From Mesorhizobium loti R88b (GTDB lineage: Bacteria; Pseudomonadota; Alphaproteobacteria; Rhizobiales; Rhizobiaceae), in NCBI RefSeq assembly GCF_013170845.1, contig NZ_CP033367.1, positions 3,287,001 through 3,351,000 of the forward strand: a stretch of DNA of 64,000 nucleotides, written 5' to 3'. How positions within the stretch are numbered: the first letter of the stretch is position 1; each line of letters starts with the position of its first letter. The notes under the pieces were generated by a model. That model saw only the letters and a list, made by a program, of their open reading frames with translations, was not told where the DNA came from and did not search any database. Below, piece by piece: positions 3,064-24,101 of the stretch. Made by a program: the position numbers and the translations under genes.

Positions 3064-4578
3064 TTGAGTCGAGACATGACCGTTGCGATCGAGATGGGAC
3101 ACACCACGGCGGGCGCCCCAGCCAACCTCGATCTCGAGGAGCTGCTGGCGACCCGCCTTCTGGTGCAGGGCAATTCGGGCTCCGGCAAGTCGCATCTGTT
3201 GCGCAGGCTTCTGGAGCAGAGCGCGCCCTGGGTGCAGCAGACCATCATCGATCCCGAAGGCGACTTCGTCTCGCTGGGCGACCGCTACGGCCATCTGGTG
3301 ATCGATGCCGAGGAGCACACCGAGCGCGGCCTGCAGGCGGCCGGCGAGCGGGCCCGCATCCACCGTGTCTCCACGGTGCTCAACCTCGAAGGGCTCGATG
3401 CCGAAAACCAGATGCGGCGGGCCGCCGCCTTCCTCGGCGGGCTGTTCGAGGTTGCCCGCGACCATTGGTACCCGATGCTGGTGGTGGTGGACGAGGCGCA
3501 GCTGTTCGCGCCGGCGGTGGCCGGCGAGGTTTCCGACGAGGCGCGCAAGCTCTCGCTCGGCGCCATGACCAATCTGATGTGCCGTGGCCGCAAGCGTGGG
3601 CTGGCCGGTATCATCGCCACGCAGCGTCTGGCCAAGCTTGCCAAGAATGTCGCGGCAGAAGCCTCCAATTTTCTCATGGGCCGCACCTTTCTCGACATCG
3701 ACATGGCGCGCGCCGCCGATCTGCTCGGCATGGAGCGGCGCCAGGCGGAAGCCTTTCGCGATCTGGAGCGTGGGCAGTTCATGGCGCTGGGACCAGCACT
3801 TTCGCGCCGGCCGCTCGGCCTGCGCATCGGCCCGACCGACACCAGCCCGCGCAACGGCACGCCGCGGCTGATGGCGATGCCGGAATCAGCACTGGAGGAC
3901 GCCCGCGCGATCATCCTGGCGGCGCCGCCGCCCGAGACGATGCGCGCGCCGCGCCGTGTGGCGTCGCCGGACCTGCTCGACCAGTTGATGGCGGCGAAGT
4001 CGGCGGCGCTGGAAATCCGTCCCGAACCGGCGGAGCCGCAAATCAGCGCCGAGGATCTGGCGGAGCGGCATGAGCGGGTGGACCGCGTGCTGCGCGCCAT
4101 CCTGGCGCAGCCTGACGCCGGTTTCCGCGTCATCGGCGTGCTCTACCAGGAATTCGTGGTGCGCTGCCGCATCGAGGGCCTCGCCTCGGTGGTGCCGGAC
4201 CTGGCTGAATTCCGCCGCATGCTGACGCGTGCCCGCGCCGGTCTCGGCTCCGAGACGACGCAGGATGATGCGTGGCGGGACGTTTCCGTGCGCGCCTCGC
4301 TGCTACCCGACGACATGCAGGGCGTGTTCATGATGATCGCGCGGGCGGCCAAGGAAGGCTGGCCTTGCCCGAGCGACGCCGCGATCGCGCGCGCCTATGG
4401 CTCGCACTCGCTGCGCCGCGCGCGGCGACTGCTGACCTATATCGAGGAGCAGGGCCTGATCGTCTGCCAGCTCGACGGCACGGGAAAGCGCACCGTGACG
4501 CTGGTGGAGTTAGCCTGGGCGACGGCGCCCGGTGACCCCAATGCCGAGGAGGTGGAGCAGGGGAGCCTGGCGCTTTGA
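3064..4578 (+). CDS. HerA/DUF87-type ATP-binding protein
   Basis: 504 residues. The Walker A motif GNSGSGKS is at 36-43 and the Walker B motif LVVVDEAQ ends near residue 146, with acidic pair D143/E144. A conserved ATQR stretch resembles sensor-type motifs of HerA/FtsK-like ATPases. The C-terminal third (about 330-504) is helical with no recognised domain. HerA-like proteins pump or remodel DNA with partner nucleases; no NurA-like nuclease lies next to it, so the role is unassigned. The TTG at 3064 is chosen because AGGAG lies 6 bases upstream; the ATG at 3076 would be too far from it. Its last 75 bases recur as a decayed copy at 7321-7393. Confidence 0.85.
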   Translation: MSRDMTVAIEMGHTTAGAPANLDLEELLATRLLVQGNSGSGKSHLLRRLLEQSAPWVQQTIIDPEGDFVSLGDRYGHLVIDAEEHTERGLQAAGERARIHRVSTVLNLEGLDAENQMRRAAAFLGGLFEVARDHWYPMLVVVDEAQLFAPAVAGEVSDEARKLSLGAMTNLMCRGRKRGLAGIIATQRLAKLAKNVAAEASNFLMGRTFLDIDMARAADLLGMERRQAEAFRDLERGQFMALGPALSRRPLGLRIGPTDTSPRNGTPRLMAMPESALEDARAIILAAPPPETMRAPRRVASPDLLDQLMAAKSAALEIRPEPAEPQISAEDLAERHERVDRVLRAILAQPDAGFRVIGVLYQEFVVRCRIEGLASVVPDLAEFRRMLTRARAGLGSETTQDDAWRDVSVRASLLPDDMQGVFMMIARAAKEGWPCPSDAAIARAYGSHSLRRARRLLTYIEEQGLIVCQLDGTGKRTVTLVELAWATAPGDPNAEEVEQGSLAL

Positions 4579-4615
4579 GAGAGCCTGGCTGGTATAGCGG
4601 AAGGGGTCGCAGACC

Positions 4616-5782
4616 CTACCTCCGCTCCGACGACCATGGAAAATTCACGTAGCGATCGCGCGTGTCATAGCAGATGTTGCCGTACATTTTGAGATAGCTG
4701 TTCCTGCGGGCCGGATCGGCATAGACGGGCGCCGGATCGGCCAGATCCGCCTCATACTGGGCGATGTTGCCGCTGGTAAGCGCAATGGGCAGGATGTCCA
4801 TGGCTTGCGGTATGCTCTTGCCGTCCAGCCAGTCGGCGGCAAACTGGCCCATGGCGTAGCCGAAGACGGGTGACGACAGGGAAATGCTGGCCTTGTAGGG
4901 GCTGTCGCCTTTCTTGATTTCGGCCACCGCCTCCGGCTCGCCGTCAATGCCGCCAAGAAACTGGTCAGGCCGGTCCTTCCCGGCCGCGCGAAGCGCCTGC
5001 AAAGCGCCCAACACCACCGCGTCGCCGCCCAGTACAACGTCGATTTTCGGGTTTGCCAGCAGGATCGTCTTCATGGTCTCGAAGCCGCCTTCCTTGGTCA
5101 CCGGACTGGGCGCGATGTCGGCCACGATGGTCACACCGGGCATTGCGTTGAGGCCGTCCCGCATGGCTTCGAACCGGGGCGCCAGAAACTCCATCGAGTC
5201 CTGCGTCAGCAGCACCACATTCGCCTTGCCACCCAGCCTGGCGTTGATGTGGGCGATGGCTGCGTCGGTGAGCACCTTGCCCGTCGCGTATTGTGGGGCG
5301 TTGAGCAGCAAGGTGGCCGGTGGCGGAACAATGGTGCCGACGAACGCTCCCGACCAGATCGTTTTCTGCAGGTCGTGGCTGATCGCCGCAGGATCGGACG
5401 AGGTTGCGACCAGGCCGCCGACCTTGCCCGCAAGCAGGGATTGTATCTGCTCGATGGCCTTTGCCGTATCGTTCTGGATCAGAAGCCTGCGATATTCCAG
5501 CCCGCGATCCTTGGCCGCCATGGCCAGGCCATGATCGACACCTTGCAGGAAATCGCGATCGTTTTCCTGAACGTAGGCCAGCACCTTGTTGAGCCCCGGT
5601 GGCGGCGTGCACGCCGCCGCATGCGGATCGAAGGCGGGAAAGACAGTGCGTTGCGTGATGCCGGGCGGGCCATCCTGCGCGCTGGCAAGGTCGAGGCCAC
5701 AGATCGACAGGACCACCAGGCAGAGAAAAAGGCGCAGTGACGCCGGCCAGCCTCTCCCGACATCCTTTCGATCGAAAGGCAT
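4616..5782 (-). CDS. Periplasmic sugar-binding-like protein (Peripla_BP_4 type)
   Basis: 388 residues with a signal peptide (hydrophobic segment about 17-32, likely cleavage after residue 35, ASA|Q). The rest fits a type I periplasmic binding fold of the ribose-binding family: a GLVATSSDP-like loop, a DVVLGGDAVVLGALQALRAAG strand-helix, and a GGIDGEPEAVAEI segment near the hinge. No permease or ATPase gene is adjacent; the only same-strand neighbour is the sensor kinase about 106 bases upstream. I infer that it presents a ligand to that kinase rather than feeding a transporter, although scavenging for a distant ABC system is possible. With the kinase it forms a cassette flanked by a duplicated fragment of the ATPase gene. 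Confidence 0.85.
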   Translation of the reverse strand: MPFDRKDVGRGWPASLRLFLCLVVLSICGLDLASAQDGPPGITQRTVFPAFDPHAAACTPPPGLNKVLAYVQENDRDFLQGVDHGLAMAAKDRGLEYRRLLIQNDTAKAIEQIQSLLAGKVGGLVATSSDPAAISHDLQKTIWSGAFVGTIVPPPATLLLNAPQYATGKVLTDAAIAHINARLGGKANVVLLTQDSMEFLAPRFEAMRDGLNAMPGVTIVADIAPSPVTKEGGFETMKTILLANPKIDVVLGGDAVVLGALQALRAAGKDRPDQFLGGIDGEPEAVAEIKKGDSPYKASISLSSPVFGYAMGQFAADWLDGKSIPQAMDILPIALTSGNIAQYEADLADPAPVYADPARRNSYLKMYGNICYDTRDRYVNFPWSSERR

Positions 5783-5888
5783 CCAAAATCCTCCCCGTTT
5801 CCGCCAGAGGTAAAGCAGGGAGTGGCTCTTTCCGCAAGCGGTCGCTTGAACTGGCGAGAAGGAGCGTTTTTCGCGGTATCCGACGTCT

Positions 5889-7247
5889 CTATGCCGTCCG
5901 GTCGCCCTTGCGGGGTTTGGTCGAAAACACCAGGCGGGCAGCCGTGCCGGGATGACGCTGCTGATACTCTATCTTCGCACCGAGGCTGATGCACATGGCA
6001 TTGACGATCCTGCTGCCGACGCCGGTACCCTTGGCGGGTGCGCCTTCGGCACGGCCAACCCCATCGTCTTCCACGACCAGTTCAGCCTGCTCATCCGCCA
6101 GCTTTTTGAGATGAACCCGGACTTCTCCAACCGCGTCGGGATAGGCGTATTTGAACGCGTTGGTGACAAGCTCGGTCACCACGACGCCGAGGTTGATGCT
6201 GATGTCGGTTTCGAGCTCTATCGGGTCGATGCCGTAGGACAGGTTGACGCCGTGAACCTGGCTGCGCAGCGAGGTGCGCAGATGGTCGAGGAGCCCGCTC
6301 AAATACTCGTCGAGCGCGACCGAACGCACGCCGCCCGAACCATAGAGGCGCTTGTGCACGAGTGAGATTGCGAAGATGCGATCTTGCGTTTCCGCCAGGG
6401 CATCCTTGGCGGCGGGATCGTCGAGCGCCTTCGACTGGAGTTTGACCAGCGACGAGACAAGGGCGAGGCTGTTGGCAACCCGGTGATTGACCTCGGACAA
6501 CAGCACTTCGGCACGGTCGCGGGCATGCGCAAGGTCGACGGTGCGGGTGGCGACGCGCTCTTCGAGGTCGCGGTTGAGCGTGTTGACCTCGTCACGGGTG
6601 ACGCGAAGCTCCCTGGTGTAGCGTCCCACGCCGTAGGCCGCGCCGCTGACCACAGCCACGATGACGAGTGCACCGATGGCCGACACGAGCCTGAGCAAGG
6701 CGGTGTTGGCGCGTTGTTCGGCAACGCCCGATGTCAGCCTGTCGTCGGCCCTGACGATGATGCCGGAGAAGAACACATTGGCTTCGTCTGTCAGCGCCTT
6801 GCCCTTGTTGGTGCGAAAGATGGCCACCACGTCCTCGTCGCGCTGATTGCGCTTGAGGGTTATCGTCTGGTCCATTTCGTCGAATTTGCTGGAAATGATC
6901 GTGGACAGGCGCTGCAAGGTTGCGTCGGAGTCCGAAGACGCCGGCAGAAGGGTCTCCAGCGCCAGCAGGCGCCGCTCGGCTTGAGCCTTCGCCGATTGAT
7001 AGGGCGCCAGATAGATCTCGTTTCCCGTAATGATGAAGCCTCGCTGACTGGCCTCAGCCGTCTGCAAGGCATTTCGCAGCTCGACCGCCGCTATGCGTGT
7101 GTCGCGCGCTGCGATCGCATCGTCGAAATAGGATTGCGCACGCTCGCCGAGCCAGAAGTTCATGGCGACGATGGCTGTCAGGGCAAGGAACCCGATCAGC
7201 AAGGCGGCGGAGGTAAAGCGGACAAGGCTACGACTGGACAGGGGCAT
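5889..7247 (-). CDS. Membrane sensor histidine kinase, CHASE3 and HisKA_2 type
   Basis: 452 residues. Transmembrane helix 1 is at about 12-32, an extracytoplasmic CHASE3-like helical domain (with QRGFIITGNEIYLAPY) at about 35-180, and helix 2 at about 187-207. A coiled linker and then a HisKA_2 box EVNHRVANSL follow, with the phospho-acceptor His255. The ATPase part has the N box TELVTNAFKYAYP and the G box DDGVGR with KGTGVGSR. This family is common in alphaproteobacteria and often works in general stress or light signalling. No response regulator gene is adjacent. The start at 7247 is set by AGGAG 6 bases upstream; the open frame extends further to 7532. Transcribed with the periplasmic binding protein. 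Confidence 0.9.
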   Translation of the reverse strand: MPLSSRSLVRFTSAALLIGFLALTAIVAMNFWLGERAQSYFDDAIAARDTRIAAVELRNALQTAEASQRGFIITGNEIYLAPYQSAKAQAERRLLALETLLPASSDSDATLQRLSTIISSKFDEMDQTITLKRNQRDEDVVAIFRTNKGKALTDEANVFFSGIIVRADDRLTSGVAEQRANTALLRLVSAIGALVIVAVVSGAAYGVGRYTRELRVTRDEVNTLNRDLEERVATRTVDLAHARDRAEVLLSEVNHRVANSLALVSSLVKLQSKALDDPAAKDALAETQDRIFAISLVHKRLYGSGGVRSVALDEYLSGLLDHLRTSLRSQVHGVNLSYGIDPIELETDISINLGVVVTELVTNAFKYAYPDAVGEVRVHLKKLADEQAELVVEDDGVGRAEGAPAKGTGVGSRIVNAMCISLGAKIEYQQRHPGTAARLVFSTKPRKGDRTA

Positions 7248-7320
7248 GGGATACTCCTGCCCGATTTCAGTGCGTCGCGCCATATTGTAGTGAAGGCTAA
7301 TAGATCGGGATGTTGAGACT

Positions 7321-7393
7321 CCGGTCGAACTCGCCTGGCCACCGCACCCGGCGACCCCAACGCCGAGGAGTTGGAGCAGGGGAGCCTTGGTGC
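7321..7393 (+). pseudogene. Decayed copy of the HerA-like ATPase 3' end
   Basis: This stretch matches bases about 4501-4575 closely, in the same orientation. It encodes the same tail (VELAW, then after a one-base deletion TAPGDPNAEELEQGSL). It has no upstream coding sequence and no start. With the intact gene it forms a direct repeat around the binding-protein/kinase cassette. Confidence 0.8.
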
Positions 7394-7432
7394 TGGCGAA
7401 GCGGCATGATGCCTTTGCCGCCTCGAAACCAA

Positions 7433-7933
7433 CTATTTCACCTTTCGGCCCAGCCCCATGGATTTGGCGAGTTTCGAGCGGGTGGCGGAGTAATTCGGCG
7501 CCACCATCGGGTAGCTGGACGGCAGGTTCCACTTCTTTCGATAATCGTCCGGCGTCAGGCCATAGTTGGATTCGAGGTGACGCTTCAATGATTTGAAACG
7601 CTTGCCGTCCTCCAGGCAGATGATGAAATCGGGCGTGACGGATTTTTTCACGGGCACCGCATATCTGATCTCGTCGGGTCCACCATCGACGACACCATCC
7701 GAAATGCTTCTGATCGACGCGTGGATTTTTCCTATGAATTCAGGAAGCTCGGCGGCGGGGATGGGGTTGTTCGAGACATAGGAGGACACGATATCGGCGG
7801 TTATGGAAATAACGGGATCGATATGTTTTCCATTGCCGTTGTATGTGCCGGCGGCATCGGCAATCTCGTCAGGTGTTTCTTCGACCATTCCTCCGGCCCT
7901 GACTATGGTCGGTCTAACATAAGCCTTCTTCAA
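7433..7933 (-). CDS. MucR/Ros-family regulator with a RiPP-leader-like N-terminus
   Basis: 166 residues. From about residue 44 the protein matches the MucR/Ros family: ITADIVSSYVSNN, then the pseudo zinc finger CLEDGKRFKSLKRHL, then the conserved KWNLPSSYPMVAPNYSATR tail. The second zinc Cys is Asp and the last His position is not His, as reported for some Mesorhizobium Ros homologues that fold without metal. MucR proteins bind AT-rich DNA and control exopolysaccharide, motility and their own genes. The first about 43 residues are not MucR-like; they fit the lasso-leader pattern YxxPxIxxxGxxxxxT. The start is TTG at 7933, with AAGGAG 6 bases upstream. An operator-like site lies at 7984-8009. 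Confidence 0.88.
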   Translation of the reverse strand: MKKAYVRPTIVRAGGMVEETPDEIADAAGTYNGNGKHIDPVISITADIVSSYVSNNPIPAAELPEFIGKIHASIRSISDGVVDGGPDEIRYAVPVKKSVTPDFIICLEDGKRFKSLKRHLESNYGLTPDDYRKKWNLPSSYPMVAPNYSATRSKLAKSMGLGRKVK

Positions 7934-7983
7934 AGGTGTCTCCTTGGGACAGTCTGGCTGATGTAGCCATTGGATGATGCAGG

Positions 7984-8009
7984 TTGTGGGAAAATTTCAC
8001 ACGTGTCAA
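7984..8009 (-). promoter_or_regulatory. Operator/promoter of the MucR-like gene
   Basis: On the minus strand a TTGACA -35-like hexamer (8009-8004) is followed by an imperfect palindrome around GTGTGAAATTTTCCCACA. The same palindrome and the adjoining GTCAACT occur twice at 10691-10750. The -10 box is not clear. The site is about 50-75 bases upstream of the TTG start, a position that would suit autoregulation. Confidence 0.55.
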
Positions 8010-8222
8010 CTGGTATGCAGTTGATCGTCCAAAGATGGTTTCGTTTCACCGGCCAACACGGGGCTTCGCTCGCGGTCAGGGTGTGGTAGCCGAGCCGACG
8101 AAAGCGCTGCTGGTGTCGCTTCTCAGCCGCCACCCTTGTGGAAGCATTTCCCACGCGCTACTTTCGGCAGGAATTTCCGAGGGATGGATGATCGATCTCG
8201 CGATTGAGAAGTGAAGGCGACG

Positions 8223-9092
8223 ATGAGCAAATCGGCGGGACAATATCTGGATGCCGCAGGGGTCCAGAACGCGTTGAACCGGGTTCTTCGCCCGTTGGTG
8301 CGGTTGGCCATCAAGTGCGGGGTGACGTTTCCAGCCTTCGTCGATCTGCTGCGTCAGCTCTACGTCAATGTGGCCGAGCATGAATTCGCGTTGCCCGACA
8401 AGCAGCAGACCGACTCCAGGGTCAGCCTGCTGACGGGCGTGCACAGGAAGGAAGTCAGCCGGTTGAGAGGGGCGGGCGCACCGGTGCGGGTGGTTCCCGA
8501 TTCCGTATCCAGGACGAGCGCCATCGTTGCGCGCTGGCTTGCCGATCCGTTGTTCGTCAACGCCAGGGGCACGCCCCTGCCGCTGGCGCGGACGAGCGAG
8601 GCGGGAGAGCCATCCTTTGCCGGCCTTGTGGAATCGGTGACCCGCGATCTCAGGCCGCGTGCCGTTCTGGACGACTGGCTCGACCGAAAGCTGGTTGAAA
8701 TCGACAGCAAGGACCGGATCGTTCTGATGGAAGGGGCCATGGTGCCGCGCGGCGACGGCGAGGTCCGGCTTTATTATTTTGCCCGAAATCTCGGCGACCA
8801 TGCGGCCGCTTCGGTCGAGAACGTTCTGGCCGACGCTCCGCCCTTCCTCGAGCGTGCCGTCCACTATGACGGCATCTCCGAGGACCTGGCCAGGTCGCTC
8901 GAGGCCTATAGCCGCGAGATCGCGGTCGAAACGCTTCTGCGCCTCAACAAATACGCAAACCAGGCCATTCAAAGCGATCCGGGCGGGACCAGCCGGTGGA
9001 ACTGGGGTGTCTATATCCTCACCGCCGACGGCACGTCGCTGGTTGCCGGGGAATCGCCCGAGAATAAGGATGCCGGCGGAGAGACGGCATGA
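8223..9092 (+). CDS. DUF6502 family protein
   Basis: 289 residues, soluble. The N-terminal part (LNRVLRPLVRLAIKCGVTFPAF and SLLTGVHRKEVSRLR) resembles a winged-helix-like DNA-binding fold, as seen in the DUF6502 family. No enzyme motif is visible. The ATG at 8223 is preferred over GTG at 8211 because GAAGG lies 5 bases before it. The 3' end overlaps the next gene by 4 bases (ATGA), so the two are translationally coupled. DUF6502 and DUF5666 genes are often neighbours in proteobacteria; a regulator plus exported partner is a reasonable but unproved reading. Confidence 0.8.
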   Translation: MSKSAGQYLDAAGVQNALNRVLRPLVRLAIKCGVTFPAFVDLLRQLYVNVAEHEFALPDKQQTDSRVSLLTGVHRKEVSRLRGAGAPVRVVPDSVSRTSAIVARWLADPLFVNARGTPLPLARTSEAGEPSFAGLVESVTRDLRPRAVLDDWLDRKLVEIDSKDRIVLMEGAMVPRGDGEVRLYYFARNLGDHAAASVENVLADAPPFLERAVHYDGISEDLARSLEAYSREIAVETLLRLNKYANQAIQSDPGGTSRWNWGVYILTADGTSLVAGESPENKDAGGETA

Positions 9093-14053: not shown

Positions 14054-15586
14054 ATGGAGCTGATACAACTCAGGCTTCTGGGTTTTCCGGAGTTCCGTCT
14101 GGACGGGCGGCCGATAGAGCTTGCCTTGCGCAAGGCGGCGGCGCTCGTCATCTACCTCGCCGAGGCCCGCGGGCCGGTGGCGCGCGACGTCGCCGCCACG
14201 CTGCTGTGGCCCGAAGCCGACGCGCAAGCCGCCCGTGCCCGCCTGCGGCGCACGCTCTACAAGATCCGCATCGCCTTCGGCGAGGACATCATATCAGCCA
14301 GCGGGGCATCGCTCAGCCTGCATCCAGCGCTGTCGGTCGAGGCCGACGCAAGCGCCTTCGAACATGCCTGCGATACCGGTCGTCTCGACGAAGCCGCCGG
14401 CCTCTACACCAGTGATTATCTCGCCGGCTTCTCCCTGCCGGATTGTCCCGAATTCGAGGAATGGGTGTTCTTTCGCCGCGAGGCCTTGCGCAGCCGGCTG
14501 GTGCAGGCGCTGGAGCGGCTGGTGGAAGCCAGGATCGCCGGGGGCGAACCGCGCGGCGCTGTAGTGCACGCCACGCGCCTGGCCGCACTCGACCCCTTGA
14601 GCGAAAGCGCGCACCGCCATTTGATCCGCGCCCATCTGGCGGCCGGTGACCGCGCGGCGGCCGAGCGCCAGGGCGAAACCTCTGCGCGGCTGCTGCGCGA
14701 CGAACTGGGCGTGGCGCCGGACCCGGCCACGCTCGCTCTGCTGCGCGCGAGCGATGCCGAGGTGCCGAGAACCCGCTATGTCGCGGTGGACGGCATCCAT
14801 ATCGCCTACCAGACCGTCGGCAGCGGCCCGGCCGATATCGTGCTGGTGCCAGGCTTCATCTCGCATGTCGAGCGCATCTGGGAAGACCGGAGCTGCCGCG
14901 CCTGGCTCAATGCCGTGTCGCGGTTCGGCCGGCTGATCCTGTTTGACCGGCGCGGCATGGGCCTGTCCGACCGCGTCGGCGCCCGCCCGACCGTCGAGGC
15001 CACCGCGCGCGACATTCTGGCTGTCATGGACGCGTCCGGCAGCCGCAAAGCCGTGCTGGTCGGCGCCTCGGAGGGCGGGCCGGGCTGCATCCGCTTTGCC
15101 GTCGACCACCCCGACCGCCTGACCGGTCTCGTTCTGTGGGGCTCGCTCGCCAAGGGCAGCCACGCGCCCGACTATCCCTTCGCGCTGACATCGGCGCAAT
15201 ACGATCTCTGGCAGCAGCGCCTGCTCGCCGGCTGGGGCGGCCCGGCCGAAATCGAAACCTTTGCGCCCAGCGTTGCCGCCGACCGCCAGGCCCGCGCCTG
15301 GTGGGCCGGCCTGCTCCGGGCCGCCTCCAGCCCCGGCGCGGTCGCCGGCCTGCTGCAGGCGCTGCGCGATACCGATGTGCGGCCACTGCTGTCAAAAGTC
15401 TCGGCCAGGACGTTGGTGTTGCACCGCACCGGCGACCGCGCCGTGCGGGTCGAGGCCGGGCGGTACCTGGCGGCGAAGATTGCGGGGGCGCGGTTTGTCG
15501 AGGTGGAGGGGGAGGATCACTGGTTCTGGGTGGGCGAGCAGGGGGCGTTGCTGGAGACGATCGCGGGGATGACGAGCGGACGGTGA
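14054..15586 (+). CDS. BTAD transcriptional-activator domain fused to alpha/beta hydrolase
   Basis: 510 residues. Residues about 1-90 form an OmpR-like winged helix as in SARP regulators (IQLRLLGFPEFRLDGRP, LLWPEADAQAARARLRRTLYKIR). Residues about 95-240 form a bacterial transcriptional activator domain of TPR-like helices (ALDPLSESAHRHLIRAHLAAGDRAAAERQ). Residues about 250-510 form an alpha/beta hydrolase with the nucleophile elbow VGASEGG and a late His in GEDHWFW. The hydrolase may act as a ligand sensor, as proposed for similar SARP-like fusions, or keep enzyme activity. No obvious target operon is adjacent. A decayed copy of its 3' end lies at about 16835-17215. Confidence 0.85.
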   Translation: MELIQLRLLGFPEFRLDGRPIELALRKAAALVIYLAEARGPVARDVAATLLWPEADAQAARARLRRTLYKIRIAFGEDIISASGASLSLHPALSVEADASAFEHACDTGRLDEAAGLYTSDYLAGFSLPDCPEFEEWVFFRREALRSRLVQALERLVEARIAGGEPRGAVVHATRLAALDPLSESAHRHLIRAHLAAGDRAAAERQGETSARLLRDELGVAPDPATLALLRASDAEVPRTRYVAVDGIHIAYQTVGSGPADIVLVPGFISHVERIWEDRSCRAWLNAVSRFGRLILFDRRGMGLSDRVGARPTVEATARDILAVMDASGSRKAVLVGASEGGPGCIRFAVDHPDRLTGLVLWGSLAKGSHAPDYPFALTSAQYDLWQQRLLAGWGGPAEIETFAPSVAADRQARAWWAGLLRAASSPGAVAGLLQALRDTDVRPLLSKVSARTLVLHRTGDRAVRVEAGRYLAAKIAGARFVEVEGEDHWFWVGEQGALLETIAGMTSGR

Positions 15587-16834: not shown

Positions 16835-17215
16835 AAGGCGACCATTCGCGACCTTCGCGCCGAGCCAGGCACGCGCTTGGTGGGCCGGCCGGCTCAGGGG
16901 CGCTTCCAGCCCGGCGCGGTGGCAGGCCTGCTGCAGGCGCTGCGCGACACCGATGTGCGCCGGCTGCTGTCAAAAGTCGCGGCCAAGACGACTGTGTTGC
17001 ACCGCAGGTGTGACCGGGCGGCGAGGGTTGAGGCCGGGCGGTATCTGGCCGCGAAGATTGCGGGGGCGCGGTTTGTCGAGGTCGAGGTGGAGGTGGAGGT
17101 GGAGGTGGAGGTGGAGGTGGAGGATCACTGGTTCTGGGTTGGTGAGCAGGGGATGTTGCTGGAGGCGATTGGGGGATGGTGCGAGGGGCAAGACAGGGCA
17201 TTAACCGACGCTTAG
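16835..17215 (+). pseudogene. Decayed 3' copy of the BTAD-hydrolase gene
   Basis: Matches about 15240-15580 closely in the same orientation. It encodes VAGLLQALRDTDVRRLLSK, RVEAGRYLAAKIAGARFVEV and DHWFWVGEQG in one frame, but has lost the first three quarters of the gene. An internal deletion near 16860 shifts the frame. The hexamer run at 17075-17122 lengthens a Val-Glu stretch. No start or promoter; not expected to make protein. Confidence 0.8.
17075..17122 (+). repeat. Hexanucleotide repeat GTSGAG x8
   Basis: Eight head-to-tail units (two GTCGAG, six GTGGAG) encode Val-Glu repeats inside the decayed hydrolase copy. The intact copy near 15500 has only about four related units. This fits replication slippage after loss of selection. 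Confidence 0.85.
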
Positions 17216-18079: not shown

Positions 18080-18375
18080 CGATCCCGCGCGCAACACCCG
18101 CAGCTTTGCCGTGTGGTTGGTGAAGCGGTTGTTATCGAGCTTGATCGGGTCGCCTGCCTTGAGCGCGAAAGTGCGCCCTGCCGCCCGTGGTATTCGGTTA
18201 ATCGCCTTGCGGCTGAACGCCGGGATGCCGTTTAGCGCAGAGATTGCTGGGCGTCACTGCTTCGACGACCGCGCTTACCGCCTTTGATCCCCGACCAGCC
18301 GCGGCTGCCGCTTTTGAAATGGCGTCGCCCCAAACTTCCATTGCTGAGTCGGCGATGCGCTCGGCTGCCTCAGGA
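18080..18375 (-). pseudogene. Frameshifted remnant, family unknown
   Basis: Two minus-strand frames read as protein-like sequence and meet at about 18236 with a one-base shift. The first includes PEAAERIADSAMEVWGDAI, the second NGIPAFSRKAINRIPRAAG and FALKAGDPIKLDNNRFT. Neither has a start with a ribosome binding site. I do not recognise the family. A prophage or accessory origin is possible but unsupported. Confidence 0.25.
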
Positions 18376-18417
18376 ATCGACTCAAGTCAAGACATACCGG
18401 CTTGCGAGCCGTGTATT

Positions 18418-18446
18418 TTGCTGACATGCTAACTTCCTTATATAGG
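18418..18446 (+). promoter_or_regulatory. Probable promoter of the GTPase operon
   Basis: TTGCTG (18418-18423), 17 bases, TATAGG (18441-18446), with an overlapping TATATA at 18439. This would start transcription near 18452, about 37 bases before the ATG at 18489. It is the only good promoter-like pair ahead of the operon. Confidence 0.45.
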
Positions 18447-18488
18447 GGTTTTGCACCGTGGCAGGTGTTCAAACGGAAGGGCGCAAGC

Positions 18489-19154
18489 ATGGCAAAGGAA
18501 TCTTCTAATTCCGTTTCTTCAGAAAAGAAAGCGGACGGAAATCTGATAGGTAACGCCGACGGAAACGGGCTGAACTTCATGGGGGTTCAGGCTCGCGAAA
18601 ACGGGGGCTCCGGCGACCCTGTAGGTGTCGACAAGATACGTGATCTGCTGTTCGGCAACCAGATGCAGGACTATGACCGCCGCTTCTCCAAGCTCGAAGA
18701 ACGGGTCTTGCAGCGCTTCAAGGATGTCGAATCCGAGGCCAAGCGCAATCTCGACATGTACGAGTCAAATGCCAAGAAGCAGGTCGATTCGCTTGCGGGG
18801 CAATTGCGGAACGAAAAAGATTCGCGAGCCGACGCCGACAAAGAGATTGATCGGAATCTTCGCGAGCAAAACCAGGCACTTGAAAAGCAGGTGCGCGCGT
18901 TGTCGGATCAATTGAGCGCGCTTGAGCGCGACGTTGCGGACCGGATAAATCGAAACGATCATTTACTGCGTGAGGAAATCAAGCAGAAGAATGAAGGCGT
19001 TCAGATGCTGATAGAGAAAATGTTTGCCGATCTCAGCAACGTCAAGACCGACCGAAATCTTTTGGCCGGCCTGTTTGTCGAGGTTGCAAAATGTCTGAAC
19101 CAGGATCCCGTCGGCAGCAAGAGCAACTCGGACCGTAGCTGGAAAGTGAGTTGA
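18489..19154 (+). CDS. Coiled-coil protein, first gene of the GTPase operon
   Basis: 221 residues, no signal or membrane segment. The N-terminal about 45 residues are Gly/Asn-rich and probably disordered. VDKIRDLLFGNQMQDYDRRFSKLEERV follows in sequence and leads into a long heptad-rich coiled coil (about 60-190), ending in DLSNVKTDRNLLAGLFVEVA. No enzyme motif. It may act as a cytoplasmic scaffold for the operon products; that is inference from position. The start is ATG at 18489 with GGAAGG 8 bases upstream; the open frame extends to 18402 but that part is unlike protein. It lies 7 bases before the OmpA-domain gene. Confidence 0.8.
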   Translation: MAKESSNSVSSEKKADGNLIGNADGNGLNFMGVQARENGGSGDPVGVDKIRDLLFGNQMQDYDRRFSKLEERVLQRFKDVESEAKRNLDMYESNAKKQVDSLAGQLRNEKDSRADADKEIDRNLREQNQALEKQVRALSDQLSALERDVADRINRNDHLLREEIKQKNEGVQMLIEKMFADLSNVKTDRNLLAGLFVEVAKCLNQDPVGSKSNSDRSWKVS

Positions 19155-19161
19155 TGGGACC

Positions 19162-22100
19162 TTGACGTCGACCGTCGACCCAATCAGCCTTCCGCAAAGA
19201 ACAGCCTCGAACGATACAGAGATTGATCGCGAGGCTCTGGCTCGTCTTTTGATCGAAATTGCCCGGAACGTTGATCCGGACTATCGTGCGCGTTTTGACG
19301 GAGTTCCAACCGCCGATCCTCGCATGGAAACACTGCGCCAGTTGCTGGTCAGCCGCGAAATTTCGGAGCTTTCACGAGTTACGCATCTGCTGGACGAACC
19401 GGAGCAGCTCGCGGCAGCCGTGGGCGACGTTCTTCCCAGTGCGGCCGCACGAGCGCCTCATGCGCAACTCGGCGAGGCCCTTGCGCCAGCTGTCGAAAGG
19501 GCTGTGCAACGGTCGATCCAGAGGAGCCCGCGCACGCTGACGGATATATTATACCCGGTGTTTCTTCCGGCAATTCGCAAGTCGATCGGGGAAAAGATCG
19601 ACCAGACCTTTCAGTCGTTGAATGAAACTTTACGACATATATTTACTTGGCACGGTCTCAAGTGGCGATTTGAATCTTGGAGAACCGGCGCCAGCTTTTC
19701 TGAAGTTGTTCTTAAGCATTCTCTCGTATATCGTGTAGAACATGTATTTCTCATTAGCCGATCCTCTGGACTACTGATATCTCATTTAGCTGCCGATAAC
19801 GTAACGAGTGAGGATCCTCAGCTTATTTCTTCGATGCTTAGTGCAATTCAAGATTTTGTGAAGGACTCATTTAACGAGAAAGAACAGAGCAGTCTGGACA
19901 CTATCCGCCTTGGTGACCTTCGTCTCTGGTCAGAAGTTGGACAGTTTGCGACCTTGGTTTCGGTGATCCGAGGAAATCCACCAGAGGAATTACATGAAAT
20001 AGTTCGCGATGTGTTGCTTCGCATCCATGAGGAGTGCTCACAGGCTCTAGCGGAGTTTGACGGCGACAGTTCGCAGTTGGCCGGCGTAGAGGCACAATTG
20101 CAGACGTGCGTTGAGCTGAAACAAGAGGAATCAAACCAGGGGTTTCCCTGGCTGGTAGTGGTTGCAGCCCTGCTGCTTTTGGTTGTGGCAGGCGGCTGGT
20201 TCTTCCTTTCTTGGCAATCCGGGCAGCGCTGGCAGGCCTATGTGGCGCGACTGGAGACCCAGCCGGGCATCATCGTTGCCGAACAAAAGGTAAGCTATGG
20301 CCAATTCTATATTGCCGGACTGAGAGACCCGCTTGCCGCCGACCCGCAGTCGCTGTTGTCCGGAACGCAGGTCGATCCCGCCCGCGTTCATTCGCAGTGG
20401 CAATCCTATCAGAGCCTTGAGCCGGAGTTCGTGTTGAAGCGGCTGACGGCGTCGCTGGCTCCGCCGGATACAGTGCGACTTTCGATCGTCAAGGATCGCA
20501 TCGTCGCCGAGGGTGAGGCCCCCGACACCTGGATAGATCAGGCGCGCGCAGCGGCCCGACAGCTTTCCGCAGGCGGACCGGAATTCGACATCTCCAAGGT
20601 TCGTGATGTGAGCCCCGAAGCGCGCGCGGCCGAGCATTGGCAGTATTATGTTTCGCGACTGGGGAGCCAGCCGGGCATCATCGTTGCAGAGCAAAAGATA
20701 CGCGATGGCCAATTCTATATTGCCGGCCTGAGAGACCCGCTTGCCGCCGACCCGCAGTCGCTGTTGTCTGGAACGCAGGTCGATCCCGCCCGGGTTCATT
20801 CGCAGTGGCGGTTGTATCAGAGCCTTGAGCCGGAGTTCGTGTTGAAGCGGCTGACGGCGTCGCTGGCTCCGCCGGATACAGTACGACTTTCGATCGCCAA
20901 TGATCGCATCGTTGCCGAAGGCGAGGCTCCTGCCACGTGGATCGACCGGGCGCAGGCCGCCGCCCAGCAGCTTTCGGCAGGCGGGCCGGTATTCGATATC
21001 TCCAAGGTTCGCGATGTAAGCCTCGAAGAACGCGAGGCGGATCGCTGGCAGGCCTATGTGTCGCGACTGGGGAGCCAGCCGGGCATCATCGTTGCAGAAC
21101 AGAAGATACGCGACGGCCAATTCTATGTTGCCGGCCTGAGAGACCCGCTTGCCGCCGACCCGCAGTCGCTGTTGTCTGGAACGCAGGTCGATCCCGCCCG
21201 GGTTCATTCGCAGTGGCGGTTGTATCAGAGCCTTGAGCCGGAGTTCGTGTTGAAGCGGCTGACGGTGTCGCTGTATCCGCTGGATTCAGTACGACTTTCG
21301 ATCGTCAATGATCGCATCGTTGCCGAGGGCGAGGCTCCCGACACCTGGATAGATCGGGCGCGCGCAGCGGCCCGACAGCTTTCGGCAGGGGGACCGGAAT
21401 TCGATATCTCCAAGGTTCGCGATGTGAGCCCCGAAGCGCGCGCGGCGGAGCATTGGCAGTATTATGTCTCGCGACTTGAGGCCCAACCTGGAATCATCGT
21501 CGCCCAGCAAACGGAGAGGGGCGGACATTTCTACATTTCCGGCCTGAGAGACCCGCTTGCCGCCGACCCGCAAGTTCTGCTGCACGGAACGCAGGTTGAT
21601 CCTGCCCGCGTTCATTCACAATGGCAATTCTATCAGAGCCTTGATCCGAAGTTCGTGGTGAAGCGGCTGGTGGCTTCGCTGACCCCGCCGAAATCGGTTA
21701 TGCTTTCGATCATCCAGGGTCGCATCGTTGTCGTGGGTGAGGCTCCTGCCAACTGGATCAACCGGGCGCGGGCCGCCGCCGAACAACTTTCGGCGGACGG
21801 AGTGGTTCTGGATGTCTCGCAACTGCATGAGTTGGACCTTGCAGAACTCAATCATTTGAGAGAGGCCATCCAGACGACCGATATTTTCTTCTCTTCCGGC
21901 AAAGTTGTGCCGGGACCAGAGCAGATGCCGGTTCTCGACAGATTGGCGGATCAAATAAAGGAATTCGCCCAAAAAGCCCGCGAGTCAGGCGTAACGGCCC
22001 GGTTCATGTTGACCGGCCATTCGGACGGCACGGGCCGTGAGACGGCCAACGCATCGATCAGCGCCGCCCGCGCGGAGACAGTTCGTGCGCTTCTCAACAA

Positions 22101-22227
22101 GCGCGGCGTCGCCCCGGAACTGCTGCTGGTTCGGGGCGCGGGCACCTTTGAACCGGCTGTGCCAGAAAATAGTCAAACAGGTAGCTCCACCAATCGCCGG
22201 GTTTCGGTTACGGTAAACCTGGACTAG
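19162..22227 (+). CDS. Transmembrane protein with BON-like repeats and C-terminal OmpA domain
   Basis: 1021 residues. About 1-328 should be cytoplasmic; one transmembrane helix is at 329-351. Four tandem repeats of about 136 residues begin near 356, 492, 628 and 764, each with FYIAGLRDPLAADPQ and a BON-like GEAPxxWIxxAR part. The OmpA-like peptidoglycan-binding domain is at about 890-1021 (IFFSSGKV, TGHSDGTG, ISAARAETV, NRRVSV). Within the cytoplasmic part, about 190-300 (VEHVFLISRSSGLLISHL, then LRLWSEVGQFATLVSVIRG) looks like a longin/roadblock-type fold; this is tentative. It could link peptidoglycan to the GTPase encoded next. The start is TTG at 19162 with a poor ribosome binding site. 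The 19600-19900 segment is less GC-rich than its surroundings. Confidence 0.85.
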   Translation: MTSTVDPISLPQRTASNDTEIDREALARLLIEIARNVDPDYRARFDGVPTADPRMETLRQLLVSREISELSRVTHLLDEPEQLAAAVGDVLPSAAARAPHAQLGEALAPAVERAVQRSIQRSPRTLTDILYPVFLPAIRKSIGEKIDQTFQSLNETLRHIFTWHGLKWRFESWRTGASFSEVVLKHSLVYRVEHVFLISRSSGLLISHLAADNVTSEDPQLISSMLSAIQDFVKDSFNEKEQSSLDTIRLGDLRLWSEVGQFATLVSVIRGNPPEELHEIVRDVLLRIHEECSQALAEFDGDSSQLAGVEAQLQTCVELKQEESNQGFPWLVVVAALLLLVVAGGWFFLSWQSGQRWQAYVARLETQPGIIVAEQKVSYGQFYIAGLRDPLAADPQSLLSGTQVDPARVHSQWQSYQSLEPEFVLKRLTASLAPPDTVRLSIVKDRIVAEGEAPDTWIDQARAAARQLSAGGPEFDISKVRDVSPEARAAEHWQYYVSRLGSQPGIIVAEQKIRDGQFYIAGLRDPLAADPQSLLSGTQVDPARVHSQWRLYQSLEPEFVLKRLTASLAPPDTVRLSIANDRIVAEGEAPATWIDRAQAAAQQLSAGGPVFDISKVRDVSLEEREADRWQAYVSRLGSQPGIIVAEQKIRDGQFYVAGLRDPLAADPQSLLSGTQVDPARVHSQWRLYQSLEPEFVLKRLTVSLYPLDSVRLSIVNDRIVAEGEAPDTWIDRARAAARQLSAGGPEFDISKVRDVSPEARAAEHWQYYVSRLEAQPGIIVAQQTERGGHFYISGLRDPLAADPQVLLHGTQVDPARVHSQWQFYQSLDPKFVVKRLVASLTPPKSVMLSIIQGRIVVVGEAPANWINRARAAAEQLSADGVVLDVSQLHELDLAELNHLREAIQTTDIFFSSGKVVPGPEQMPVLDRLADQIKEFAQKARESGVTARFMLTGHSDGTGRETANASISAARAETVRALLNKRGVAPELLLVRGAGTFEPAVPENSQTGSSTNRRVSVTVNLD
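20227..21831 (+). repeat. Four tandem ~408-base repeats in the OmpA-domain gene
   Basis: In-frame units of about 136 codons. Units 2 and 3 are nearly identical at DNA level over long stretches (for example about 20690-20860 and 21098-21270), while unit 4 is the most diverged. This indicates recent amplification by unequal recombination. Confidence 0.85.
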
Positions 22228-22240
22228 GGCGGGGCCCAAG

Positions 22241-22735
22241 ATGTTGCAAAAAAAGATCTGCATGCTGGGCGGGTTCTCTGTCGGCAAGACGAGCCTGGTC
22301 CGCAGGTTTGTGCAAAGCATCTTTTCAGAAACCTACCTGACCACGGTGGGCGTGAAAATCGACAAGAAGAGTGTCGCACTACCGGACAAAACCGTGGATC
22401 TGATTTTGTGGGATTTGGCCGGCGAAGATGATATCGGCTCATTCCGCGTCAGCCATGTGCGAGGTGCGACAGGGCTCGTGCTTGTCGTCGATGGAACCCG
22501 CGCCGCCACTCTTGTCGCCGCACTCACGCTGCGCGAGCGGGTCGAGGCCGAATTCGGTGCCATGCCGTTTGTATTGCTGTTCAACAAATCCGATCTGGCC
22601 GATAAGTGGGTGATACCGGATGGTGAGATTGACGAACTGAGGCAACGTGGATGGCAAATCTATCTGACAAGTGCGCTTACGGGTGAACATGTCGATGATG
22701 CGTTTCGTCAACTTGCCTCGATAGTTACCAAATAG
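22241..22735 (+). CDS. Ras/Rab-like small GTPase
   Basis: 164 residues, a single compact G domain. G1 is GGFSVGKTS (10-18), the switch I Thr is T34/T35 in TTVGVKI, G3 is WDLAGED (57-63), G4 is NKSD (115-118), and G5 is TSA (143-145). No lipidation tail or extra domain. The residue matching the catalytic Gln of Ras (DTAGQ) is Glu62, so intrinsic hydrolysis may be slow or need a partner. It belongs among prokaryotic Ras-superfamily proteins (MglA/Rup-like), which switch cytoplasmic polarity or signalling machines. It starts 13 bases after the OmpA-domain gene and ends 3 bases before the cyclase gene, so co-function is likely. Confidence 0.92.
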   Translation: MLQKKICMLGGFSVGKTSLVRRFVQSIFSETYLTTVGVKIDKKSVALPDKTVDLILWDLAGEDDIGSFRVSHVRGATGLVLVVDGTRAATLVAALTLRERVEAEFGAMPFVLLFNKSDLADKWVIPDGEIDELRQRGWQIYLTSALTGEHVDDAFRQLASIVTK

Positions 22736-22738
22736 ACC

Positions 22739-23809
22739 ATGCATAGATTGCCAAGAGAAGTCGGAAACTGGACTTACAATTTCTTCTACAACGAGCGTTC
22801 TATCGCATATGTGAAAATCGACGCCCAGCTTTGCATAGCTGGGAAGGGCGGTAACGTTAAACATTACGGGCTCTCATCGCTTCGCATCGGCAAGCCAGTT
22901 GCCGATCAGCTTGAATTCATGGAAGGTTTGCTGCCTTGCCCCGAGCTTCCATATCATATGCCTATGGTCGAACTGCCCAGCGGGCGTGTCGCGGATCTTC
23001 ATCTTTTTGCTGACGATGACTGCGTGTGGCTGCTCTTTCTCGACGTCACTGCCGAACGAGACAATAAGCAGCGGCTTCAACAGAAGGCTTACGAAATGAC
23101 GCTCCTGCAAGAGAGGGAGCGTCAACTCAACGAGAAATTACAATCGATGAACGAGGCGTTGAGGGAGAGCCAAGAGGGATTGCAGCGTGAATACCAGCGC
23201 GCCGAAACCCTGCTCCTCAACATTCTTCCGGCGTCGATCGCGGAGCGGTTAAAGTCAGACGAACAAATTGCCGACAACCACGCAGAGGTAAGTGTGCTTT
23301 TTGCCGACATCGTCGGTTTTACGGAAAGAGCGCGGAGCGTCGGAGCCGTGACGACGCTCGCTATTTTAAATTACTTCTTCAAGGCGGCGGATCGGCTGTC
23401 GGACCAATACGGCTGCGAAAAGATCAAGACAATCGGTGACTGCGTGATGGTGGTCGCTGGCATGCCCGCCGCGCGATCCGATCATGCAGAAGCCCTCGCG
23501 CGCTATGCACTTGAGCTGCGGGAGGCGGTTCAGCACGAACGCTTCGCCGGAGAACGGCTAAGGCTCAGAATTGGAATTAACTCGGGACCAATCGTCGCGG
23601 GCGTCATAGGCAAAAAGCGGTTTGCCTATGACCTGTGGGGCGAGACCGTTAATCTCGCCGCACGTATTCAAACGTCCGCGGAGCCCGATGAAATCCGTAT
23701 TTCGGATGCAACCCGCAGACTGCTTGGGCCAAATTTTGCTTGTGACCCACTCGCGGAAACAGAACTGCGTGGTACAGGTAGAGTGCGAATGTGGCGCCTC
23801 CCGGCTTGA
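22739..23809 (+). CDS. Class III adenylate cyclase with PAS-like N-terminus
   Basis: 356 residues, cytoplasmic. About 12-105 is a PAS-like sensor region, about 105-160 a coiled coil, then an LLNILPASIAERL linker and a class III cyclase catalytic domain at about 180-356. Metal ligands are Asp190 (FADIVGF) and Asp234 (TIGD). Adenine selectors are Lys230 (KIKTIGD) and Asp298 (YDLWG). Asn305 and Arg309 (NLAAR) complete the active site. The Lys/Asp pair predicts ATP as substrate, hence cAMP. All key residues are present, so it should be active as a homodimer. The gene is tightly coupled to the GTPase gene, suggesting GTPase or envelope control of cAMP output (inference). Confidence 0.92.
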   Translation: MHRLPREVGNWTYNFFYNERSIAYVKIDAQLCIAGKGGNVKHYGLSSLRIGKPVADQLEFMEGLLPCPELPYHMPMVELPSGRVADLHLFADDDCVWLLFLDVTAERDNKQRLQQKAYEMTLLQERERQLNEKLQSMNEALRESQEGLQREYQRAETLLLNILPASIAERLKSDEQIADNHAEVSVLFADIVGFTERARSVGAVTTLAILNYFFKAADRLSDQYGCEKIKTIGDCVMVVAGMPAARSDHAEALARYALELREAVQHERFAGERLRLRIGINSGPIVAGVIGKKRFAYDLWGETVNLAARIQTSAEPDEIRISDATRRLLGPNFACDPLAETELRGTGRVRMWRLPA

Positions 23810-24101
23810 TTTGCCGCTTGGCGGTGCGATACGCATTGGATCTTGTGGCCTGTCCGTTGACGTCCGGTCACAATGCGATCCCGGAGATCTGCGTTCACCG
23901 TTGGTAAAGCACATCGCAGCGACATCAAGCCAGGGGCTTCATCGCTTCCGCCGGCCTCCAAACGCTCCAACCTCCCGTCCGGACAACTATGAGGCGCTAT
24001 GCCATCGGTTCGAAGGCTCAAGGCAAAGGTCGGCTTTCTGGCTCGAACACCCTAACAGCAGCCGGTTCGCTCCCGGCCCAACTGCGGCCAGTCAACTCCC
24101 C

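Follow-up and report, generated by a model that had tools for sequence, protein, structure and literature searches.

Layout of the four-gene cassette

The window, the 64,000-nucleotide stretch of Mesorhizobium loti R88b DNA that was analysed, contains a cassette of four forward-strand genes whose features are listed in Table 1. The open reading frames are separated by only 7, 13 and 3 bases, and their coordinates bear out the co-directional operon described in an earlier sequence-only reading of this DNA. All Pfam matches of gene 1 fall under every curated cut-off, and many of them are to coiled-coil families. Gene 2 has one hydrophobic peak, beginning at residue 331. Its first three repeats are 85-89% identical to one another and 62-68% identical to the fourth; the repeats were missed in the sequence-only reading, and their number differs among relatives without loss of the system. 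A promoter scan returned a single weak site, inside gene 2, and shuffled sequences gave more.

Table 1. Genes and features of the cassette (positions in the window)
Feature	Position	Strand	Description
Gene 1	18489..19154	+	221 aa, putative cytoplasmic coiled-coil protein
Gene 2	19162..22227	+	1021 aa, TTG start; predicted single-pass: cytoplasmic part, TM, four periplasmic repeats, OmpA domain
Gene 2 cytoplasmic domain	19687..20127	+	aa 176-322, proposed roadblock/longin-like fold
Gene 2 TM segment	20152..20208	+	about aa 331-349, hydropathy
Gene 2 tandem repeats	20230..21861	+	aa 357-900, four of 136 aa, predicted periplasmic
Gene 2 OmpA domain	21916..22197	+	aa 919-1012, peptidoglycan-binding, Pfam OmpA 7.5e-11
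Gene 3	22241..22735	+	164 aa, Ras-like GTPase of Group 1 Rup type
Gene 4	22739..23809	+	356 aa, class III nucleotide cyclase, adenylate-type motifs
Gene 4 N-terminal domain	22739..23128	+	aa 1-130, common to phosphatase, kinase and GGDEF outputs
Gln115 codon	23081..23083	+	best-kept residue of the shared N-terminal domain

Conservation and probable mobility of the cassette

Eight of 80 surveyed loci had no membrane-protein region and were dropped. The complete four-gene order is present in 65 of 72 loci seeded with the GTPase and 44 of 57 seeded with the membrane protein (the 57 exclude L171, a GTPase-seeded locus, and include L179, a duplicate of locus L101). The co-occurrence search proposed in the sequence-only reading therefore does not find the genes mostly apart, and because the same order recurs in distant bacteria, the arrangement is more than chance. 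Of the 57 membrane-protein-seeded loci, 56 have a relative of gene 1 immediately before gene 2, and two loci (L156 and L184) have the membrane protein with no adjoining GTPase. A natural fusion suspected in L196, from a frame of 3116 aa, proved to be a run of 7,500 N.

Of 67 Mesorhizobium-type loci, 57 showed no match in the flanking DNA, a count that includes loci with flanks cut by contig ends, and similarity stops sharply at the cassette edges. Both results support the suggestion, made earlier from base composition and neighbouring debris, that the region was horizontally acquired. The two original signs also hold: GC content is 0.53-0.58 in the cassette genes against 0.71 in the gene at 14054-15586, and the decayed DNA on the left includes a partial copy (16858-17178) of 15277-15571, 79% identical. 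The Mesorhizobium relatives are 88-97% identical.

The GTPase and its exchangeable output enzymes

Gene 3 is a single-domain protein (Pfam Ras, 4.6e-27) inside the Group 1 Rup size range of 150-240 aa. It contains G1 (GGFSVGKTS), G2 (LTTVGVKID), G4 (NKSD) and G5 (TSAL) motifs, while its G3 motif reads WDLAGED, with Glu62 in the place of the Ras catalytic Gln. The statement that all active-site motifs are intact thus holds for the cyclase and for G1, G2, G4 and G5 of the GTPase, and fails at G3. The G3 Gln is missing from all 68 window-type GTPases (the window and 67 close relatives, WDLAGED) and from all but three of 66 further GTPase rows, one of the three being truncated there.

Gene 4 matches Pfam Guanylate_cyc (7.1e-49) over aa 179-354. 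Its motifs, FADIVGFT from aa 188, EKIKTIGD from 227 and YDLWGETVNLAAR from 297, we take to hold the metal-binding, adenine-specifying and transition-state residues; with these presumed roles, the catalytic domain and motifs place the protein among the class III adenylate cyclases. The fourth gene varies between loci, encoding a class III cyclase, SpoIIE-type phosphatase, histidine kinase or GGDEF enzyme, all behind one N-terminal domain (output assigned in all but 12 of 66 non-Mesorhizobium loci). On a GTPase tree of 72 rows (the window, at most nine Mesorhizobium/Rhizobium-type sequences and others of at least 140 aa, excluding L179), the adenylate cyclase label requires five changes, four of them forced by well-supported branches. 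Because other enzyme classes can take the place of the cyclase, the cAMP link, put forward earlier as part of a new type of device, is not what defines the system.

Gln115 of the shared N-terminal domain is conserved in 34 of 36 aligned outputs in a chosen set (A9). In a wider list of 65 N-termini, a text pattern matched 59, of which one (L198) is not at the aligned place. The domain matches no Pfam family, only two unrelated proteins were listed in a PDB profile search, and its resemblance to PAS domains is by eye only. Two GGDEF outputs (L197 and L198) have Arg or Gly at the Gln115 place. We considered whether a G3 Gln compensates for the lost output Gln; this was not supported, since the GTPases of both loci have Arg in G3. 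L193 carries both the output Gln and the G3 Gln.

These features correspond to a published kind of system, the Group 1 Rups (Wuichet and Sogaard-Andersen 2014, PMC4316618). As described in that paper's passages on the group, a coiled-coil protein, an "unknown domain"-TM-OmpA protein, the GTPase and an output enzyme are neighbours, G3 without the catalytic Gln is a mark of the GTPase, and an M. loti member (mll3243) is named. The window shares the GTPase size, the G3 motif without Gln, the putative coiled-coil gene, the membrane protein and an output with the invariant N-terminal Gln, here Gln115. The "new type of envelope-signalling device" of the sequence-only reading is thus real as a conserved four-gene unit, but its kind was already set out in 2014 in the passages cited. 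The usual outputs given there are c-di-GMP enzymes and histidine kinases. The output in the window is instead a class III cyclase, and the words "adenylate" and "guanylate" are absent from the paper's main text. Compared with those passages, our set also adds SpoIIE-type outputs and the window adds the four periplasmic repeats.

The same parts could serve as a positioning device, with the GTPase placing the complex at cell-wall sites, like MglA at the poles, so that cAMP or another messenger is produced locally and the wall is an address, not a signal. The outputs are exchangeable while the anchor and GTPase stay constant, and the system persists as repeat number changes, both of which would suit such a role. 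Sequence does nothing to separate positioning from wall sensing, however, and we regard this alternative as possible, at clearly less than even chances.

A candidate roadblock/longin domain in the membrane protein

Roadblock/longin domains, such as those of MglB and TRAPP, are regulators of small GTPases. The cytoplasmic domain of gene 2 matches no Pfam family. Using a profile of 12 divergent homologues, all four PDB sequences listed belong to the roadblock/longin superfamily (best E 0.027), and two further profiles of the aa 176-322 region gave roadblock/longin proteins as three of five and three of seven PDB sequences listed. None of the PDB matches is better than E 0.01. Roadblock proteins are absent among the PDB sequences listed for profiles A4, A6, A7 and A8 of the same region, and A8 listed five ATP synthase delta chains (A6, A7 and A8 are subset profiles; A8 has four loci in common with A10 and a fifth under another locus number). 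A first comparison with MglB was null. A profile-profile comparison of nine divergent rows with MglB-type domains gave P 0.0012, with none of 400 column shuffles scoring as high, and in the MglB comparison that used 92 rows, four of 400 shuffles equalled or beat the real score. No Robl_LC7 match at E 0.001 was found in the M. loti genome or 20 relatives (0 of 21), which leaves no separate MglB available, and the coupling to an MglB gene that marks the MglA family was not found.

Taken together, we consider it probable that the membrane protein of Group 1 Rup systems carries a diverged roadblock/longin domain as its unknown part, so that a regulator of small GTPases would be joined in one chain to an anchor that crosses the membrane and binds peptidoglycan. 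The passages of PMC4316618 on Group 1 Rups do not contain this assignment and offer no explanation for the domain. The model of 2014 has no such regulator: the output N-terminal domain and its Gln would be the sole GTPase-activating part and the OmpA protein merely an anchor or sensor. The supply of Gln in trans was put forward by those authors, and the absence of the G3 Gln, the conservation of Gln115 above all other residues of its domain and the lack of significance of the roadblock matches taken one by one are consistent with it. Nevertheless, three overlapping profiles agree on one superfamily and one match withstands 400 shuffles. In addition, the cytoplasmic domain is conserved in 17 of 18 lines (alignment A4), which a mere anchor would seem not to need. 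We think the regulator-free version rather unlikely and favour the roadblock/longin assignment as the more probable.

Working model and comparison with other systems

We interpret the four genes as a transferable unit that encodes a Group 1 Rup system whose output is a class III adenylate cyclase, and rate the whole working model somewhat better than an even bet. Gene 2 would cross the inner membrane and grip peptidoglycan through its OmpA domain, and the repeats would form a spacer whose length can be adjusted. The roadblock/longin-like domain of this protein would hold the Ras-like GTPase and regulate it in the way that MglB regulates MglA, and the coiled-coil protein may keep the parts together. 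The GTP-loaded GTPase would dock on the N-terminal domain common to the output enzymes, where Gln115 could supply the missing catalytic Gln and so couple docking to GTP hydrolysis. Cyclase activity, and with it cAMP, would shift along with docking and hydrolysis. The order of the genes, their conservation, the exchange of outputs, the kept Gln, the absent G3 Gln and the edges of the cassette are observations, and from these we infer the fold of the cytoplasmic domain, all of the contacts, the direction of signalling, the change in cAMP and the stimulus. The idea that the genes form a mobile defence cassette built on a Pycsar-like cyclase is very improbable and was set aside after a PADLOC check: neighbourhoods shift, edges are sharp and gene 4 matches PycC models (9.2e-14), but most of that match covers the common cyclase domain, the cyclase is not followed by an effector gene, the GTPase has no PADLOC match, and the outputs of relatives include kinases and GGDEF enzymes.

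The preferred Group 1 Rup model shares with the MglA/MglB polarity module a small GTPase and, as proposed here, a roadblock-type regulator. In contrast to that module, the G3 motif sets the GTPase apart from the MglA kind, and the proposed regulator would be part of a protein anchored in membrane and wall, in a genome with no stand-alone Robl_LC7. Actinobacterial conservons (CvnA-D) also have four genes, described in PMC4316618 as encoding a GTPase, a roadblock protein, a membrane signalling protein and a further small protein. Unlike in conservons, the window GTPase is from a different family, the roadblock-like domain would be on the same chain as the membrane anchor, and a separate enzyme, open to exchange, serves as output.

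If the roadblock/longin assignment is correct, MglA/MglB, conservons, eukaryotic TRAPP and Rup systems would have a regulator architecture in common. Both prokaryotic families of small GTPases would then be paired with a roadblock/longin domain, a point of relevance to how eukaryotic GTPase control arose. The two proposed contacts, with the regulator domain and with the output Gln, make a concrete model that is testable in mesorhizobia, which are harmless and culturable. It would describe a Rab/Ras-like bacterial GTPase wired directly to the cell wall and, on its other side, to interchangeable messenger enzymes.

A Group 1 Rup cassette in the window

The four genes of the window cassette lie on the forward strand with gaps of 7, 13 and 3 bases, as the sequence-only reading had described, and gene 2 has a single strong hydrophobic segment near residues 331-349. 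The host genome is 7.2 Mb in one contig; its genus is taken to be Mesorhizobium, since the cassette's GTPase and its counterpart in Mesorhizobium carmichaelinearum share 97% identity.

Features of the four-gene cassette
Feature	Position	Strand	Evidence
Gene 1, coiled-coil protein	18489-19154	+	ORF
Gene 2, membrane protein	19162-22227	+	ORF; OmpA domain aa 919-1012 by Pfam, 7.5e-11
Gene 3, Ras-type GTPase	22241-22735	+	ORF; Pfam 4.6e-27
Gene 4, class III cyclase domain	22739-23809	+	ORF; Pfam 7.1e-49

The arrangement had been proposed as a new type of envelope-signalling device, a claim that stands only partly because the four-gene system is already published as Group 1 Rup. PMC4316618, which defined the Rup family, describes a Group 1 neighbourhood that comprises the rup gene, a gene for a coiled-coil protein, one for a membrane protein that combines an unknown domain with an inner-membrane helix and an OmpA domain, and one for a signalling output whose N-terminal part has an invariant Gln. 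The window cassette shares each of these parts, and a Mesorhizobium loti member is among the Group 1 Rups named there; the cassette almost certainly belongs to this group. The typical published outputs are a diguanylate cyclase/phosphodiesterase fusion or a histidine kinase (PMC4316618), whereas the window output is a class III cyclase, and the words "adenylate" and "guanylate" are absent from that main text. A search of the open-licence literature found no experimental work on any Rup system.

Conservation and joint transfer of the four genes

The four genes are a conserved unit, found together rather than mostly apart. Searching genome contigs with the GTPase yielded 343 relatives, and the analysis went on with the 80 best. 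The gene 2 cytoplasmic region was present in 72 of these 80 loci (L-numbers), and 65 of the 72 have the full order of coiled-coil gene, gene 2, GTPase and output on one strand, counting only output genes that carry the shared N-terminal domain. The seven others include four in which gene 2 is broken into two frames (L034, L048, L076, L085) and one with a GTPase frame called too long (L103). With the gene 2 cytoplasmic region as seed, 44 of 57 loci have the full order and 56 the coiled-coil gene. Among the remaining 13, contig ends cut L148, L162 and L192, L196 contains 7,500 N, L195 has its GTPase on the opposite strand, L156 and L184 show no GTPase adjoining gene 2, and L164, L165, L166, L189, L190 and L194 have a GTPase with no recognised output domain adjoining. 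The gene 2 cytoplasmic region occurs in 47/349 genomes sampled from the window's phylum, 19/146 from that of Scytonema and 5/148 from that of Desulfonema.

The four genes also travel together, since their flanks are mostly unshared and similarity ends at the cassette borders, which supports the earlier guess of horizontal acquisition. At 57 of 67 Mesorhizobium-type loci there was no flank match with the window of more than 150 nt at E 1e-10; five others share an aminopeptidase gene at 15.7-16.8 kb, two a rearranged transporter block and three a piece of about 160 nt. On the left, similarity stops at 18360-18499 in 48 of the 59 loci that extend that far; on the right, it stops at 23800-23849 in 63 of 67. 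Further left, 16858-17178 is a decayed duplicate, a partial copy (79% identical to 15277-15571) of the 3' part of a BTAD/alpha-beta hydrolase gene; it lies antisense within the 5' region of the aminopeptidase ORF and includes a Val-Glu codon run.

The membrane protein

The cytoplasmic domain of gene 2 (residues 176-322) likely has a fold of the roadblock/longin superfamily, which includes the small-GTPase regulators MglB and TRAPP, as judged from sequence comparison. By eye its elements run helix-strand-strand-helix-strand-strand-strand-helix, which is the element order of the roadblock domain. With few sequences, an initial comparison with MglB-type domains gave no signal, and the PDB sequences listed for profile A4 of this domain were three unrelated chains. 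With 92 rows, 82 columns aligned to MglB-type domains in register (P 0.0098); column shuffles scored as high in 1/60 and 4/400 cases, and 0/400 reached at least 80 aligned columns. Nine divergent rows, eight absent from profile A5 and the ninth (L262) being the same locus as L162, gave P 0.0012 against MglB-type domains, with 0/400 shuffles as high.

Among PDB sequences listed, roadblock/longin members made up three of five for profile A5 (71 rows; TRAPP Bet5, E 0.16 and 0.99; a Roadblock/LC7 protein, 0.32), three of seven for A11 (77 rows) and four of four for A10 (9jue, 0.027; 7f8f, 0.14; Bet5, 0.47 and 2.1), none of the gene 2 matches passing E 0.01. A10 comprises 12 divergent alphaproteobacterial homologues, whose kinship with the window's domain is based on profile searches, and its match spans residues 11-92 of the 94 in 7f8f. 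Profiles A6, A7 and A8 found no roadblock protein; as a rough base rate, these three, A4 and the output profile A9 gave 12 PDB sequences, none roadblock/longin by name. Pfam scans of 71 single members gave weak matches that included DUF6831 (the best, 0.00088), Fuz_longin_1 (0.0018; 3/71) and Robl_LC7 (0.024; 2/71). The window's genome and 20 relatives contain no Robl_LC7 match.

A second, more divergent gene 2 lineage occurs in Alphaproteobacteria (L162-L166, L171, L262-L270); the adjoining GTPases that were read (L163-L166, L171) have WDTDGD or WDIDGD as their G3 motif.

Four 136-residue repeats precede the OmpA domain, the first three 85-89% identical to one another and 62-68% identical to the fourth. 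Across 59 Mesorhizobium/Rhizobium-type ORFs there are three repeats in 27, four in 25, two in 3, one in 3 and none in 1; the lowest of these counts belong to split frames (L034, L048, L076, L085). Among 71 other ORFs, 45 have one, four have two and 22 none recognised. The repeats may serve as a membrane-to-wall spacer of changeable length.

Exchangeable outputs and the shared N-terminal domain

Outputs are exchangeable. Pfam identified class III cyclases (window, L092, L096, L104, L135, L136, L140, L145, L150, L155, second output of L183), SpoIIE-type phosphatases (L094, L097, L098, L099, L103, second of L104), histidine kinases (second of L101, L102, third of L104, L157, L163, L171, L180, first of L183, L186, L193), GGDEF-EAL proteins (L158, L159) and GGDEF proteins (L197, L198), and the remaining outputs were classed by similarity to these. 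A cyclase is present at every one of the 59 Mesorhizobium/Rhizobium-type loci whose call was complete, and one of them has an additional cyclase-like gene downstream. The 66 other loci divide into 26 with cyclase only, 13 with kinase (two being the same locus), 6 with phosphatase, 6 with GGDEF, 3 with more than one type and 12 without an assigned class. On a 72-row GTPase tree, which has long branches and gives rows without an assigned output their own label, the cyclase label requires five changes, at least four of these forced by well-supported branches.

In family f76 of the window's phylum (e.g. L136-L155; genomes mostly 1.2-3.1 Mb), nearly all sampled matches are the cyclase version. L104 (Desulfonema magnum) carries a cyclase, SpoIIE phosphatase and histidine kinase consecutively after the GTPase (L104:10501-14817), which suggests one GTPase serving several outputs. 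Stand-alone N-terminal domains of 123-133 residues with no enzyme occur at L101:10502-10870, L181:4252-4650 and L182:8197-8592, with a histidine kinase gene next in L101 and L182, and in L189 output-type domains lie beside the GTPase on both strands (4043-5578, minus; 5842-8298, plus).

When 36 output N-termini are aligned (A9; mean column identity 25%), Gln115 is more strongly conserved than any other aligned position of the window cyclase (34/36; Arg in L197, Gly in L198). It opens a helix-like stretch, QQKAYEMTLLQ, preceded by a DVT-type motif. The window GTPase and 67 close relatives share the G3 motif WDLAGED, and among 66 other GTPase rows, one truncated there, only L189, L190 and L193 have the G3 Gln. 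Group 1 Rups are described as lacking this Gln, and PMC4316618 suggests that a Gln is given in trans; the kept output Gln and the missing G3 Gln agree with that idea. Counter to it, L193 has both residues, and L197 and L198 have neither.

A proposed wall-anchored switch

We favour a GTPase switch anchored to the cell wall, in which the membrane protein is the predicted GTPase regulator and the GTPase would act on the cyclase through a putative contact with the shared docking domain. The system itself is already in print; its long-standing unknown domain may now get a name, and the model of a wall-anchored GTPase switch is directly testable.
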